Shown one piece after another: positions 17,797 through 62,327 of a stretch of DNA of 64,000 bases. This DNA is from Caldifarciminota bacterium (GTDB taxonomy: Bacteria; Hydrothermota; Tepidihabitantia; SM23-42). The position numbers were made by a program, and so were the translations under genes. Location of the stretch: contig CP070705.1 of NCBI GenBank assembly GCA_020349965.1, positions 1,808,458 through 1,872,457 on the forward strand. The letters are read 5' to 3'. The notes beneath the pieces are model-generated. The model searched no databases and was not told the DNA's origin. It saw only the letters and a list, made by a program, of their open reading frames with translations. Numbering within the stretch: position 1 is the stretch's first letter; every line of letters begins with the position of its first letter.

Positions 17797-17811
17797 ATGT
17801 CCGGAGGTACC

Positions 17812-18900
17812 GTGATCGAGCTTAGGAATTTCGTCAAAAACATAAAGCCGTACAAACCCGGAAAACCGATCGAAGAGGTGATTAAGGAGCTCGGACTGAC
17901 GGGCGAAATCATAAAACTTGCATCAAACGAGAACCCCTTGGGGGCTTCGCCGCTTGCAATAAAGGCAATGAGCGAGAAAATAGACGACTCACACCTTTAT
18001 CCCGATGATAATTGTTTTTACCTGAAACACCGGTTGAGCGAAAAATTCGGCATTCCGACGGCCAACACGATCGTAGGAAGCGGCTCGGTAGAATTGATCG
18101 AGTTGATCTTCAAGGCGTATGTCAACCCCGGTGACGAAGTGATAATGAGCGAACCGTCTTTCATTATGTACAAAATAGCCTGCCAGATCTTTGGAGGCGA
18201 GCGAGTTGCAGTACCACTCGTCGGACATGCCCACGATATTGACGCAATGGCACAAAAGATCAACAGTAAAACCAAGATAGTAATTCTCGATAATCCCATA
18301 AATCCAACTGGCACGATCGTTGCGAAAAAGAAAATGGATCATTTCGTCGACGCGGTACCGCCCGATGTCATCCTTGTGCTCGATGAAGCATATCACGAAT
18401 ACATCGAAGATGCAACATACCCTAACGGCCTCGATTACCTGAAAAAGCACAGCAACATCATGGTGCTCCATACATTCTCGAAGATATACGGGCTCGCCGG
18501 ATTGCGCGTTGGCTACGGGTTTGGGAGCGAAGAGATCGTCGGTGCGATGATGAAGGTGAGACTTCCCTTCAACGTGAACCGTATCGGACAGATCGCTGCC
18601 GGCGCCGCACTCGGCGATGAGGATTTTGTGAAGCACAGCCGGAATAACAACGAAGCCGGTAAGGAGTTTCTATACAACGAACTCCGCAGCCTCGGCCTGA
18701 AATACACGCCCACTTTCGGCAATTTTATTCTCGTCGATTTCAAGCGTGATGCAAAGGATATCTTCGAAGCAGCACAGCGCAAAGGAGTCATCACCCGGAC
18801 CGTATATGAATATGGCCTCCCGACCTCGCTGCGGATCACGATCGGCTCGCCTTCACAAAACAAACAACTCATAAACACTCTGCAGGAATTCTTACGGTGA
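17812..18900 (+). CDS. hisC: Histidinol-phosphate aminotransferase
   Basis: PLP aminotransferase of fold type I converting imidazole-acetol phosphate to histidinol phosphate; relatives also act on aromatic keto acids. 362 residues from GTG at 17812. This start is chosen over the ATG at 17797 because GGAGG lies four bases before the GTG and the -10 box abuts the ATG; the resulting MIELRNFVKNIKPYKPGKP matches normal HisC N-termini. Motifs: LASNENPLGASP, DNPINPTGT, VLDEAYHEY, PLP Lys in HTFSKIYGLAGLRVGYG, and the C-terminal Arg in SLRITIGS. No other his genes are nearby. ptb overlaps its stop by four bases. Confidence 0.88.
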   Translation: MIELRNFVKNIKPYKPGKPIEEVIKELGLTGEIIKLASNENPLGASPLAIKAMSEKIDDSHLYPDDNCFYLKHRLSEKFGIPTANTIVGSGSVELIELIFKAYVNPGDEVIMSEPSFIMYKIACQIFGGERVAVPLVGHAHDIDAMAQKINSKTKIVILDNPINPTGTIVAKKKMDHFVDAVPPDVILVLDEAYHEYIEDATYPNGLDYLKKHSNIMVLHTFSKIYGLAGLRVGYGFGSEEIVGAMMKVRLPFNVNRIGQIAAGAALGDEDFVKHSRNNNEAGKEFLYNELRSLGLKYTPTFGNFILVDFKRDAKDIFEAAQRKGVITRTVYEYGLPTSLRITIGSPSQNKQLINTLQEFLR

Positions 18901-23767: not shown

Positions 23768-26700
23768 CTATCGGGCAACAATGAATTTCTCTACAGCATC
23801 GTCCCGCGAATTATCGGCTTCCACATAAGTCTTAACGATGTATACACCATTGCTGATCGAATCACCGTAATTGTCGCGGCCATCCCAGTAGATCTGATTG
23901 TAGCCCGCAAGGCAAGAAATATTATCAATAACCTTTACCAGACGGCCGGCGATCGTGAAAACCTTGATCGTTGCCATACCGCCTCGTGTAACATTGAAAG
24001 TGAACCAGAGTCCTTCGTCCGTCTGTACTGGATTCGGATAGATGAGAAGATCTTCGATCTCAATCTGACCGTACAATTCGGTATTGAGTGTGATCCTTCT
24101 CACCGTCTGGTTGAAATTATTATCAACGACGTTTATCGTGAGGGTGTCGACCCTCTCAGGCAGTTCTAATTCCACATGGAACTCACCGGCGGTAAACGAG
24201 TTCTTGTCATAGGAAAAGTAATCACGTAGATCAACCTTACTGTCGAGATTGCTGTTTATGTAAAGAAAGAACCCGTTCGTGCTCTCGACCGAATACAGCA
24301 AATTGAGACCGCTGCTGTCGGCTACCCGCCCAGTAAGAGTGAATACCTTGTCAACCCAATCTCCATCTTTCAACTCCCTCCCTCCGTCATACATTACTAC
24401 TTCAGGTCCGTTGTTGTCGGCAGAGGGAAGGGCCGTTCCGTACATGCGGATCGAGTCCTGCACGCCGCTGCGGTTACCATATATCCCGCTGATTTTCAGC
24501 ACCGGCAGGTTAGTGGTCAAAACCCTCGGTGCAATGATCGTTGCCGTATCACTATCCCAGTATCCAGTATATACCTCTTTACCGTCGATGTAGTACCCAT
24601 AAGGAACATATGATGGTGTGTTACTGACCTGCACCAAACGGTACACATAACCACTGATCTTATCCGCCGTGCTCGCATCGAATCTTTCGATATGAGTGGT
24701 ATCGCGTACAAAAGCTTTAAGGTGATAGCGGTCGGCGTCGCAGATTGCATCGAGCTCCTCCAATGGCCTCACCGAATCAGGAGTATGCGTAAAATGCATC
24801 GACTCCGTCATCTTCCTGAATTTCGTTGCCGGATCACCGATGAGCAGATGCTGTTGAAACCAGACTCCACTGCGGGCGATCACACTGCACTCACCCATTG
24901 TCAAAGTTGTATCAGGGTTCGTGATACTCTCACACAAACGCCCGCCGATTGCTTGGTTAGTGCCAGCAAAGGTACCGGCCGTGGCTCCCATCGTGCCGAT
25001 CGCGCCCGACCTGATGCGCACGAATTCTTCACCAAGACATTCGTAGTCAGAATCATTAAAACGGCTGACATTACACGACCCGAAGTAGAAGAAAGGTAAG
25101 CGTCTGCCGTTCCTGAGTTGGCCGATATAGGGGCTCAAGAACAGTATTTCGTGCGCCAGTTGGTGTGTATTACCATGGCCGTAGAACAAACCGAGCAGAG
25201 AACCTTTATTGAACTCCCGAATGAACACCTCTCGGGCATTCGCCTTTTCCGCAGTGCCCCCACCGAGCGGCGGGTAGCTGATCATATACACCTTGACGAA
25301 ATCATACAGCGAGTCAGGGATGAATGCACTGTTTGCCTCAGCGGCTCCTGTATGCATACTCGGGTTCTCGAAGCTGTAAGCGTATTCATCATCTGCGGAC
25401 AGTAGCACGCGCTTTGTCCATGGACCCGTGATATCACCAGTTTCATAAGTAAGGAGTTTGTCAATGAAGTCCCTCACTTCCTGCCTGGTGCGTACCGTGA
25501 TCCTTCCCAAACACATTGCCTCGCCTTGCCCGAAATTGACGTATTCACCTTCGTAAAGATCGTTGTCCGAGAAAACAGGACTGCCTGAAAGGAATGTGCC
25601 GTATTCATACATGGGAACGAAATTTGGAGCATTTTCTTTTCGCAGGTTGTTCTTGTAATCGTACGTGGCATCTCCAACGAGTAGAACATATTTTGGATAG
25701 GGTGACCAATTATTGGTTGTATAATACAGAAAATGCTTTATCGCCAATGGATCAAAACGTCCAAAGGAAAAATCATCGTATATATCATCAACAACAACAA
25801 CCCTGGTGAGGTATTCCTGACTTCGGTATTCGACGAGCGGCATGATCGCGTTGTAGAAATCTTCGTGGGTAATGATGACGTAGTCACAAGCCTCACCCAC
25901 GGTTCGCAATCTACCTGGATTGGCCGGAATCAACTCTGCCGATTCTGCAAAAGCGAGTGCAGAGACATACAGCATCTGAAAGGAATCGACTGCTCCCGAA
26001 AAGCGCATTATACTACCTTCGAGCTCCAGATTGGATAGCATTCTCGGCACAGTCAAATCCGTGACATCGATGACGAACGGTTGAGTCCCAATATCAGTGT
26101 ACCGTATTGAATAATTCCTCGGCACGTTGAACAATACATGGTGAGGTGCCTCGAGCGTAGCACGGCGCTCGTAACTGATGTCCACCGCGTTAAGATAGGC
26201 CGTTAGACTCGTCAAGACGCCCGTTGGCCGTATGATCTCAAACAGGAAGGTCGAGGAATCTCCGCTCAAGGTTCCATTGCCAGTCATGTATATTGGCGGC
26301 ATTCTGCTCCGTAGGGGCACGAGAACGGTGTCGCTAAAGAACGTGAGGCCGTCTAATGAGAACCGGAACCAAAAAGTTGCCGTGTCCAGTGTGAACAACG
26401 CTGCCCTTGCCTCTGCATTGCCGATCGCACCGGGGTGCGCAACGGTAACCTGAGCCATGCCTTGCGGACCGCTCAGCGGTGACATGTCTGCCCAATACCA
26501 ATTCGTTCCGGAACGCGTGGGATTGCCAACATCAATCTCGTTGTGACATATCGCGCTGACAGTAGTGTCCGGCGTTGCCCCGTTCCATGCGGCATCCACC
26601 CCTACCATGCGCCTGCCGTCGGCACCGCCAAAGGTGAACCAGTAGATATTATTAGTGGCATATCCGTTTTCATACCACGTAATACCGGTGTCCGGTACAA

Positions 26701-27592
26701 AGTGACTGGCACCATGACCATAGAAGACTAAGTAATCTTCGGCGTCGAACACACCGTCCTCAGCGCCATGTACGTATACCGGTATTTCGATGAGCGAATC
26801 GAGCGAATCGGGCAGCGGTACGCTCTGCGGCAGCACATCGTACGGCGCGGTAAAGATCTTCATCGTCCTCGGGTCGAATTGACCAGGATCGAGCCCTGCA
26901 TCTCTGATCTCGGTCGGCCCGATCTTATACAGCCCGGAATTCTCGACTTCTATCTTGAACCAGACCGAGCCGGCGAACGGGTTTCGCCGCATTGGATTTG
27001 GTGTTCTCAGCCAATCACGACATTGCTCATAATTGATGACCGTCTGACTGTAGATCTGGGCATACGCATCATCGAGTGCACGTCTCGTTCTTGGTTCGCC
27101 CTTGAATGCTACATAGATTTTTACGTCGTTGGCAACTCTCAGCTCCTTAGTCACCGGATTATAACGTACTGGGTTGAGGCGCACATCGACCGTATATAGA
27201 TCACGGAAATAGCCCGGTTCCGACACGGAGATCATTGCCTCCGGGTAAAGACTGTTCCGACGATAAACATCTGAATAGAATCTACCTTCACCTCGAGCAC
27301 CACTCTCGTCAATTGCCGTGTAGTATGCAGGCTCGATGACCACATCCTCGAAGACCGTTTCATTGTAACCGATGACACTTACTTCTACTCCACCATCCTG
27401 AGGAATGCCAACCTTATAATATAGCGAAGGGACATTCGGCTCACCGCGCCGGCTGAACCACATCGCTTCCGGAAACGAGTACTTATCACGACTCAACTCA
27501 TCGAATGAAAAAGTAACCTCGACTCCTTGCGTTCCTACCTCATTGATCGTCGTTGCACCAACGACCAAGATGAGCATTGCAAAACTAACCAT
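23768..27592 (-). CDS. Gingipain-type C25 peptidase, PorU-like, with C-terminal sorting domain
   Basis: 1274 residues. A short signal sequence ([15 protein letters not shown]), a long beta-rich N-terminal region (about 20-560), a C25 peptidase domain (about 568-930) with [12 protein letters not shown], catalytic His806 in FYGHGN and catalytic Cys840 in [10 protein letters not shown], Ig-like segments, and a C-terminal sorting domain (about 1185-1274) with [23 protein letters not shown] and NGVYIVK. PorU is the surface sortase of type IX secretion that removes sorting domains and attaches cargo; the N-terminal prodomain and size fit, but a gingipain-like secreted protease is possible. GAGGT lies seven bases before the ATG, within the overlapping Trm112-like gene. 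Confidence 0.85.
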
Positions 27593-59473: not shown

Positions 59474-60745
59474 TTACCACAGCAATACACACATCTTCGT
59501 TCGCGTGGCTGCACCGGTACTTAACCTGTAGAAATAGACTCCATTAGGCAGGCCCCTTCCGTCAAGAGTAATACTGTGATGGCCAGCTTCCATTTGTCCA
59601 TTGACGAGTTCAGCCACCTCTTGCCCGATCAAATCGTAGACCGTTAGCCTGACATGTGCCGCTTCAGGAATGCTGAAACGTATAGCAGTCACATCACGGA
59701 ATGGATTCGGACTGTTCTGCGCCAGAATGACATCGCCGGTTGTTCCTTTGAAAACTTGAGTTTCTTCAATACCTGTTCCGCCGGTCGTCGTGTGGATAAT
59801 AGTACCATCGAAACCTACAGCCCAACCGGTGTCCGCGTCGAGGAAGAAAAATCCATACAGATAATTGTCAGCTCCGGCATCCTGCATTACCCACGTTCCG
59901 CCACCGTCTGTTGTATGTAGAATTGTTGCATGCGTGTTGTCGCCACCTGAGATCCAACCGGTCAAATCATCGATAAATTGAATATGGCTAAAATGATGCA
60001 GTGTACCGAGGTACAAAGAATCCCATGTCGAACCCCCATCAACCGTCCTCACAACTAATCCGTTAACGCCGACAGCCCATGCCGTATCAGGAGTCACTGC
60101 GCTGACACTTGAAAACTCACGCAGGGTTCCAGATGTTTGCTCAATCCAGTTTGCCCCACCGTCTGTCGTATTGAATATGGCACCCGCCTGACCAACCGCA
60201 TAGCCTATATCTGAATCGAGGAAATGTATACCATGGAGTGCATATTCATCGTTTTCGTATAACTGAGTACTCCACGTGTTCCCTCCATTACTCGTATAGA
60301 GCACAAAGCGCGTCGGATCCGGACCAGGAAAACCTTCAGGCCTGCCTCCAGCGATCCACCCGTGATCTTCGTCAATGAAATACATATCCCAAAGATAACC
60401 ATCGACCGTCGAATTCTGATCAACCCATGTAGTCCCACCATCAGTAGTGTATCTAAGCTGTCCGAAATTGCCGCCTGCCCAGCCTTCTTGCGCGCTCACG
60501 AAGTGTATTGAGTAATAGTTGACGGACGGCGGCGGTTGGAGATCGACCCAATTTGCGCCCCCATCCGTTGTATGAAAAATACTGTTAGTGATGCTCGCTA
60601 TCCACCCATTTTGACCATCGGCGAAGTGAACATCGAAAAGCGGTTTGTTAGTACCTGAATTCTGTAAGACCCAACCCTGTGAAAGAGCAAGAACGGGCAT
60701 CACCAACATTACGATCCACACGAACAACTTCATTTCATACTTCAT
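59474..60745 (-). CDS. Secreted Ycf48-like repeat protein with C-terminal sorting domain
   Basis: 423 residues. Signal peptide MKYEMKLFVWIVMLVMPVLA, about seven beta-propeller repeats of the Ycf48/BNR type (FVSAQEGWAGG, TTDGGTTWVDQN, IHFLDSDIGYAVGQ, TTDGGANWIEQTSG), then a type IX-like sorting domain (about 335-423) with ILAQNSPNPFRDVTAIRFSI, DLIGQEVAELV and LPNGVYFYRL. Similar proteins are abundant surface proteins in FCB-group bacteria; the propeller ligand is unknown. GGGAGG lies seven bases before ATG 60745. It probably depends on a PorU-type sortase such as the one at 23768. Confidence 0.88.
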   Translation of the reverse strand: MKYEMKLFVWIVMLVMPVLALSQGWVLQNSGTNKPLFDVHFADGQNGWIASITNSIFHTTDGGANWVDLQPPPSVNYYSIHFVSAQEGWAGGNFGQLRYTTDGGTTWVDQNSTVDGYLWDMYFIDEDHGWIAGGRPEGFPGPDPTRFVLYTSNGGNTWSTQLYENDEYALHGIHFLDSDIGYAVGQAGAIFNTTDGGANWIEQTSGTLREFSSVSAVTPDTAWAVGVNGLVVRTVDGGSTWDSLYLGTLHHFSHIQFIDDLTGWISGGDNTHATILHTTDGGGTWVMQDAGADNYLYGFFFLDADTGWAVGFDGTIIHTTTGGTGIEETQVFKGTTGDVILAQNSPNPFRDVTAIRFSIPEAAHVRLTVYDLIGQEVAELVNGQMEAGHHSITLDGRGLPNGVYFYRLSTGAATRTKMCVLLW

Positions 60746-60908: not shown

Positions 60909-62327
60909 CTAGCGCACCAGGGTCACTCGCCTGCTCTCAGCAAACTCACCCTGCATGAGGTGTATGACGTATACGCCTGATGGTACGCTTCTTCCGTGAA
61001 CGTCTTTACCGTCCCAGATAATATCGTGTGTTCCGCTTTGGAGCACGCCGTTCACAAGGGCCTGGACCTTCCTGCCTGAGGCATCATATATGACAAGACG
61101 GACCCTTTCCCCACCCCAAATCGAGATCCTGATTGTACATTGCTGACTGAAAGGATTCGGATAGACCCGGCTGAGACCAAAGATCGTCGAGTCGCCACCA
61201 CCTGGGGTCTGACCGAGTATTTCGCCGAGCGCCACGATGAACTGCTGCATCTCATCGATCGTTCCAGTAGAAACACGTATGTGCTGGGGCATTCCCCAAC
61301 CGACGCGCACCAGAAAACCCGCGTTGGCGAGCGAAGCAGCAACCGTACTCGCACTCGTACCCGTATCGAACATCATGAAGTTCGTCTCTGATGGAATATA
61401 ACCCAACCTGAGAGCACGGAATCCCTCAATAAGAATCTCCTTTGCCTGTTCGTTAAGTGCGATGGTGTTATTTAAGTGTTGAGTATCTGCGAGAGCTGCG
61501 ATTGCCGCTGCCTGTGCCAATCTGCTGACCATACCTATATTCTGCGAAGATTGTATCATCGATGTATAGCCGGCTGATGCCACTGTATATCCGATACGGA
61601 CACCGGCAAGACCATAAGCCTTGGAAAAGGTCCGTATCACGACGAGGGGATATCCTTCAGTTACATAACGGATACAACTTTCGTAGTCTGAGGAATGCAC
61701 ATAGTGATGGTAAGCTTCGTCCACAACGACCACGATGCCCGAGGGAAGTGAGTCCATGAACGACTGCATAGCGGTCTTAGAGAATATCGTCGCCTGGGGG
61801 TTGTTTGGGTTGACCAGCGAGACTAGCTTCGTATTGCCCGTTATCGCATCACGAATCGCACTCAGATCGATCATGTAGTTTTCATCCACCGGTACGTACA
61901 CAATTGATGCGCCATTTGCAGCCGCCTCAGACGCCATCTGTGAGTATGTCGGATTGGCTGTCACCAGTTCGCCTCCGGCATACAGAAAAGCATCTGCCAC
62001 GAGACGGATCATTTCGGTAGCCCCTGCGCCGGCGCATATCATATTCGAACTCACGCCATGTTGAAGCGCAATATTCGCCTCAAGTGTGGAGCTGAACCAG
62101 TCCGGATACCGGTTGCCCTCAGCAGCAGCCTGTTGCATCGCCCCCAGAGCAAGGGGTGAAGGTCCCAACGGATTTTCATTATAGCACAACCTGCCGAACG
62201 TGTCTTCTGTTGCTGTTGTACCGAATGGACGCGCTTTTATCCGACCAACGCCGGGCAGGTACATGAAACTCAAACCAGCTGCAGATGCCTTTAGGAATTG
62301 CCTGCGGGTAAAACCTTTATTATCCAA
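60909..62327 (-). CDS. Exported HisC-like aminotransferase with Tat signal and sorting domain
   Basis: 472 residues in three parts. A twin-arginine signal FTRRQFLKASAAG (6-18), a complete fold-type I aminotransferase (about 40-365: NENPLGPSPLA, NPNNPQAT, VVDEAYHHYV, PLP Lys236 in RTFSKAYGLAGVRIGY), and a C-terminal sorting domain (about 380-472: RVYPNPFSQQCTIRISI, RLVIYDASGRKVQALV, VPSGVYVIHLM). It therefore seems to be folded with PLP in the cytoplasm, exported by Tat and then handed to a type IX-like outer-membrane route. TTG start at 62327 with GGTGA upstream; perfect promoter at 62345-62372. Confidence 0.9.
   Translation of the reverse strand: MDNKGFTRRQFLKASAAGLSFMYLPGVGRIKARPFGTTATEDTFGRLCYNENPLGPSPLALGAMQQAAAEGNRYPDWFSSTLEANIALQHGVSSNMICAGAGATEMIRLVADAFLYAGGELVTANPTYSQMASEAAANGASIVYVPVDENYMIDLSAIRDAITGNTKLVSLVNPNNPQATIFSKTAMQSFMDSLPSGIVVVVDEAYHHYVHSSDYESCIRYVTEGYPLVVIRTFSKAYGLAGVRIGYTVASAGYTSMIQSSQNIGMVSRLAQAAAIAALADTQHLNNTIALNEQAKEILIEGFRALRLGYIPSETNFMMFDTGTSASTVAASLANAGFLVRVGWGMPQHIRVSTGTIDEMQQFIVALGEILGQTPGGGDSTIFGLSRVYPNPFSQQCTIRISIWGGERVRLVIYDASGRKVQALVNGVLQSGTHDIIWDGKDVHGRSVPSGVYVIHLMQGEFAESRRVTLVR

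Follow-up and report, generated by a model that had tools for sequence, protein, structure and literature searches.

A predicted PLP-dependent aminotransferase with a twin-arginine signal and a type IX sorting domain in candidate division WOR-3

The minus-strand gene at positions 60909–62327 of the window (the whole 64,000-nucleotide stretch of DNA analysed), from a candidate division WOR-3 / Stahlbacteria bacterium, encodes a 472-residue protein in which a twin-arginine (Tat) signal, a HisC-like aminotransferase domain and a sorting domain of the type IX secretion system (T9SS) follow one another. The pairing of the two signals suggests a fully assembled enzyme acting on or outside the cell, and the best explanation, which we hold to be probable, is Tat export of the PLP-loaded aminotransferase followed by T9SS passage to the surface. 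Tat export of PLP transaminases is already known; what is new here is that such an enzyme also carries a type IX tag, as the cargo of the T9SS is exported by way of Sec according to reviews (PMC5445135; PMC9251779). No described example of a Tat-exported T9SS cargo was found in the open-access literature searched.

Domain layout and the aminotransferase

The gene starts with TTG, at about the same position as the ATG of its orthologues, and residues are numbered here with the Met encoded by TTG as 1; the coordinates of all parts of the gene refer to the minus strand. The protein consists of a signal (residues 1–32), the aminotransferase domain (approximately 45–372), a linker (373–387) and a C-terminal sandwich (388–472). 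Pairwise identity among orthologues is 73% in the signal, 73% in the enzyme domain and 66% in the tail, compared to 41% in the variable linker (61167–61211), where the structure model has low pLDDT at residues 373–380. A three-part architecture had been proposed in a first-pass annotation, and it holds: Tat signal, complete enzyme and sorting domain are each recovered by profile match. The layout also recurs in relatives, with no stop separating the parts. Of 147 genomes surveyed in the phylum, 11 have an orthologue (67–74% identity), and all of these belong to a single family of 23 genomes; ten orthologues are full length, and a scaffold gap divides the copy in genome G076. The MAG Gpa_5, from a species-level set of public genomes, shares the layout (56–57% identity), and in a plasmid collection no protein with all three parts was seen among the matches listed.

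The class I/II aminotransferase domain (61212–62195) matches PF00155 with 158.6 bits (cut-off 19.7). The predicted structure has a mean pLDDT of 80.7, and its best Foldseek match is 3ly1, with a TM-score of 0.91 by target length and an rmsd of 1.6. The PLP lysine and NPNNP motif, previously noted as intact, are indeed present: NPNNP at residues 173–177 (61797–61811) and the Schiff-base lysine as K236 (TFSKAYGLAGVR; 61620–61622), which aligns with the HisC lysine. In an alignment with E. coli HisC, the HisC encoded in the window and other homologues, K236, N176, D203, Y206, R244, R341 and R351 are invariant; D203 and Y206 belong to DEAY, R244 is the PLP-phosphate arginine and R351 the substrate arginine. 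On these features the gene product is a predicted fold-type-I (subfamily I-beta) PLP aminotransferase. The arginine pair R341...R351 (61275–61307) corresponds to Arg322/Arg330 in the ArAT of M. tuberculosis, where the pair holds a dicarboxylate mimicking the glutamate donor (PMC4703992). Its retention therefore favours a transaminase with a dicarboxylate in the donor/acceptor pair.

Fold, PLP site and arginine pair are common to this enzyme and HisC. However, the score against the HisC equivalog TIGR01141 is 246.4 bits, below the cut-off of 276.55, and a separate true HisC at 17797–18900 of the window scores 341.7 bits. Consequently, the enzyme is probably not a HisC, and its earlier description as HisC-like stands for fold and family but not for identity. 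The lid of HisC contains a PY motif, whereas the present protein has PF at the aligned position, immediately behind the predicted cleavage site. A tree of 41 sequences, built without members of the PtaA and PRK09105 groups, unites the orthologues with strong support in one clade; its stem is long, and the HisC sequences of WOR-3 lie outside it. A recent duplication of the organism's own HisC was rejected on the basis of this separation, while the deeper placement of the clade is uncertain because of long branches.

A functional precedent is PtaA of Pseudomonas fluorescens, a Tat-exported, PLP-loaded periplasmic transaminase (PMC6206403). The PtaA profile (NF051461) aligns over residues 6–365 of the present protein, signal included, but its 359 positions leave no space for a sorting domain. 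With 199 bits, where the cut-off is 500, the protein is not a PtaA orthologue, and, unlike for PtaA, no pyoverdine genes were recognised among its neighbours. Similarly, the PRK09105 profile (NF006580) aligns from residue 5 with 223.2 bits, against a cut-off of 444; neither this profile nor 3ly1 includes the C-terminal sorting domain. The Zymomonas mobilis plasmid pZMOB01 (L109) and a Novosphingobium humi plasmid (L070) also encode HisC-like enzymes whose N termini are of the RR type and which lack a sorting domain; the Zymomonas enzyme is annotated as histidinol-phosphate transaminase and adjoins a TonB-dependent receptor. The first-pass view that extracellular PLP aminotransferases are very unusual needs correcting: exported ones are unusual, yet PtaA and the alphaproteobacterial enzymes are precedents. 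Given that PtaA was already known, Tat export of a transaminase is less unusual than had been supposed.

Terminal signals and export machinery

The N-terminal signal (MDNKGFTRRQFLKASAAGLSFMYLPGVGRIKA; residues 1–32, 62232–62327) contains the motif TRRQFLK, with twin arginines R8 and R9 (62301–62306) that are invariant in all orthologues compared and whose [ST]RRxF context is kept. TIGR01409 matches the first 46 residues with 18.5 bits (cut-off 16.7) and PF10518 with 22.6 bits (cut-off 22.7), and the isolated N termini of some orthologues fall below the TIGR01409 cut-off. The hydrophobic core is weak, with a KD value of 1.3–1.5; for six signals of this genome that are presumed to be of the Sec type the values are 2.2–2.75. 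The probability that [ST]RRxF[LMIF] turns up by chance in the N-terminal region of one or more of the genome's 67 sorting-domain genes was estimated as approximately 0.005. At the end of the signal the aligned orthologues share an aliphatic residue (I/V/L)-x-Ala, followed by x-P-aromatic, and this conservation points to a putative signal peptidase I site after A32, giving a mature chain that would begin RPF. With its motif, weakly hydrophobic core and A-x-A-like site the protein has the sequence traits of a Tat substrate, and its export is predicted accordingly to be of the Tat type, in agreement with the initial assignment.

The tail (residues 388–472, 60912–61166) lies at the extreme C terminus and ends in RVTLVR, a typical basic/aliphatic ending. 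Scanned alone, it matches the T9SS type A sorting-domain profiles TIGR04183 (34.8 bits, cut-off 23) and PF18962 (29.9 bits, cut-off 27), and the type IX-like sorting domain recognised earlier is confirmed at profile level. In the whole-protein scan PF18962 reaches 25.5 bits, just under its cut-off, which is exceeded in the orthologues L055, L056 and L059. FlgD-Ig is also among the best tail matches (PF13860, 38.8 bits on the tail alone). The tail is modelled as a seven-strand sandwich with a pLDDT of 86, resembling the C-terminal domains (CTDs) of PorU (TM-score 0.75 by query length) and RemA as well as PorZ (0.64), and also FlgD. In having such a sandwich, and SprA and PorV in the genome, the protein resembles T9SS type A cargo; known cargo of this type is described as entering the periplasm via Sec. 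Since its signal is of the Tat type instead, it would represent a variant and not a standard T9SS cargo.

The host genome (2.3 Mb, one contig) encodes TatA and TatC. It also encodes a SprA homologue with a total of 242 bits (cut-off 200), part of the start of which is N, three PorV-family proteins over the cut-off and ten clear C25 peptidase matches. Sorting-domain matches number 67. The GldM profile gave no match in the host genome and, likewise, none in the control genomes. Within the window, positions 23768–27592 of the minus strand encode a C25 (gingipain/PorU-like) peptidase of 1274 residues that itself ends in a sorting-type domain.

The genome's other strong Tat signal belongs to a DUF362 protein (L004:8013–9332, plus strand; about G000:C1 2253012–2254331). 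This protein carries both end signals as the aminotransferase does (TIGR01409, 20.4 bits, cut-off 16.7; TIGR04183, 29.6 bits, cut-off 23) around an unrelated central domain, and it is conserved with both in nine genomes of the family. Thus, the pairing of Tat and T9SS signals is not a one-off: at least two unrelated cargo families of predicted exported proteins have it in this family. That Tat export of type IX-like cargo is uncommon, as previously stated, agrees with the reviews, which mention Sec signals only, but within this family the combination occurs at least twice. Just upstream of the DUF362 gene (G000:C1:2252912–2252956, and L100) a 39-residue ORF repeats its Tat signal (MNDISRRDFMKYCSVGAS...); it is present in two genomes and is probably a truncated duplicate.

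Proposed export route and competing explanations

In the route that we favour, the enzyme would fold and be loaded with PLP in the cytoplasm, and Tat would carry the folded holoenzyme over the inner membrane, where signal peptidase I would cut next to A32. The T9SS (SprA/PorV) would then recognise the C-terminal beta-sandwich and move the folded enzyme through the outer membrane; removal of the tail, with attachment or release of the enzyme, may be the work of a C25 sortase-like peptidase. At the surface, the most likely reaction would be transamination of free amino acids, or of an amino acid moiety in a larger molecule (cf. PtaA), the other partner being a dicarboxylate, for instance glutamate/2-oxoglutarate. 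We infer this route from the conserved layout, a signal that is as strongly conserved as the enzyme, the presence of the machinery genes, the DUF362 protein with both signals, the distinct clade beside a separate true HisC, the PtaA precedent, and models that match transaminases and T9SS CTDs. Against it were counted the FlgD-Ig-like character of the tail, a Tat score only modestly above the cut-off, the lack of a GldM match in the host, as in the controls, and neighbours that point to no substrate. Aminotransferases are moreover dimers, and a dimer would have to pass through SprA. That the T9SS moves its cargo in a folded state has been reported (PMC9251779).

The chemistry could differ on the same Tat–T9SS route, the protein acting in vivo as a decarboxylase, lyase, racemase or cyclase on a single substrate. 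CobD, capreomycidine synthase and GntC are such enzymes in the same superfamily, and the profiles of CobD, GntC and VioD match the protein, which scores below every curated transaminase cut-off among the matches listed. The residues after NPNNP are QA, LA, LP or QG in place of the usual TG, and with a single substrate no amino acceptor would be required outside the cell. On the other hand, HisC-type transaminases give the best matches by profile as well as by structure, and the arginine pair of dual-substrate enzymes is kept, although CobD-type enzymes may keep it too; we regard such a chemistry as unlikely, if plausible. Less probable still is that Tat exports the transaminase but the enzyme remains periplasmic, as PtaA does, with the Ig tail as a structural or docking domain. 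This would fit the alignment of the PtaA and PRK09105 profiles from the RR motif across the enzyme domain, the FlgD-Ig matches of the tail and the lack of a GldM profile match in the host, a lack that the controls share. However, the tail exceeds T9SS sorting-domain cut-offs, has the typical ending and is modelled like the CTDs of PorU, PorZ and RemA, in a genome with SprA, PorV and 67 sorting-domain matches, and RR-signal transaminases elsewhere do without a tail.

Sec export with incidental twin arginines would agree with the assignment of T9SS cargo to Sec in the reviews, and with those orthologue N termini that score below the TIGR01409 cut-off. Yet the RR pair is invariant, [ST]RRxF is kept and the core is less hydrophobic than the presumed Sec signals of the genome, while a PLP holoenzyme is expected to require folding in the cytoplasm and TatA and TatC are both present, making Sec export improbable. 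An annotation or assembly artefact, in which an ordinary cytoplasmic HisC has its N-terminal motif by coincidence and its tail by misjoining, could draw on the HisC-like enzyme domain. It is hardly credible in view of the same layout in at least ten assemblies, across genera, the separate true HisC above cut-off, the distinct clade and the low chance of the motif.

Returning to the Tat–T9SS route, a conserved set of proteins with Tat signal and sorting domain would bring cofactor enzymes assembled in the cytoplasm to the cell surface and widen the T9SS repertoire. A lineage represented in this analysis solely by metagenome-assembled genomes also gains a predicted trait, and whether transamination takes place outside a cell becomes directly testable. 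More tentatively, and with a good deal of doubt, WOR-3 bacteria might use a dedicated Tat-to-T9SS relay for cofactor-loaded surface enzymes, with true extracellular transamination feeding nutrition; possible substrates would be, for example, amino acids freed by the many secreted peptidases.

Gene neighbourhood, scaffold gaps and further RR-type proteins

Immediately downstream of the aminotransferase gene, positions 59474–60745 of the minus strand encode a sorting-domain protein with YCF48-like repeats, which recurs close to the aminotransferase gene in five genomes within the genus. Other neighbours are a rhodanese, an aspartyl-protease/PDZ protein and, as judged by eye, an ArsR-like regulator and a glycyl-radical enzyme pair. 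Assignment of a function from the neighbours was rejected, as the conserved genes recur mainly inside the genus and none points to a substrate.

Two MAGs have a 100-N scaffold gap within the aminotransferase gene, at the conserved TFSKxYGLAG stretch (L061:9729–9828 and L062:9717–9816). In G076 the gene halves overlap at RTFSKVYGLAGARIGY and each adjoins a run of N, 100 N where measured; in bin522, from the species-level public genome set, a scaffold gap cuts the gene and the N-terminal half only is present. An inversion inside the G076 gene was rejected in view of this overlap, the N runs beside both halves and the gap of bin522 at the same place, which therefore looks like assembly breakage. 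The shared gap position at TFSKxYGLAG likewise suggests breakage at a common sequence.

Finally, proteins of approximately 380 residues with a Tat-like SRRDFLKK at the N terminus occur in most genomes of the family (L008:7250–8425, plus strand; L079–L083, L087–L089, L106 and L107). By eye they have the look of AmmeMemoRadiSam-type radical SAM proteins, and the SRRDFLKK stretch is odd for a radical SAM enzyme expected to be cytoplasmic.
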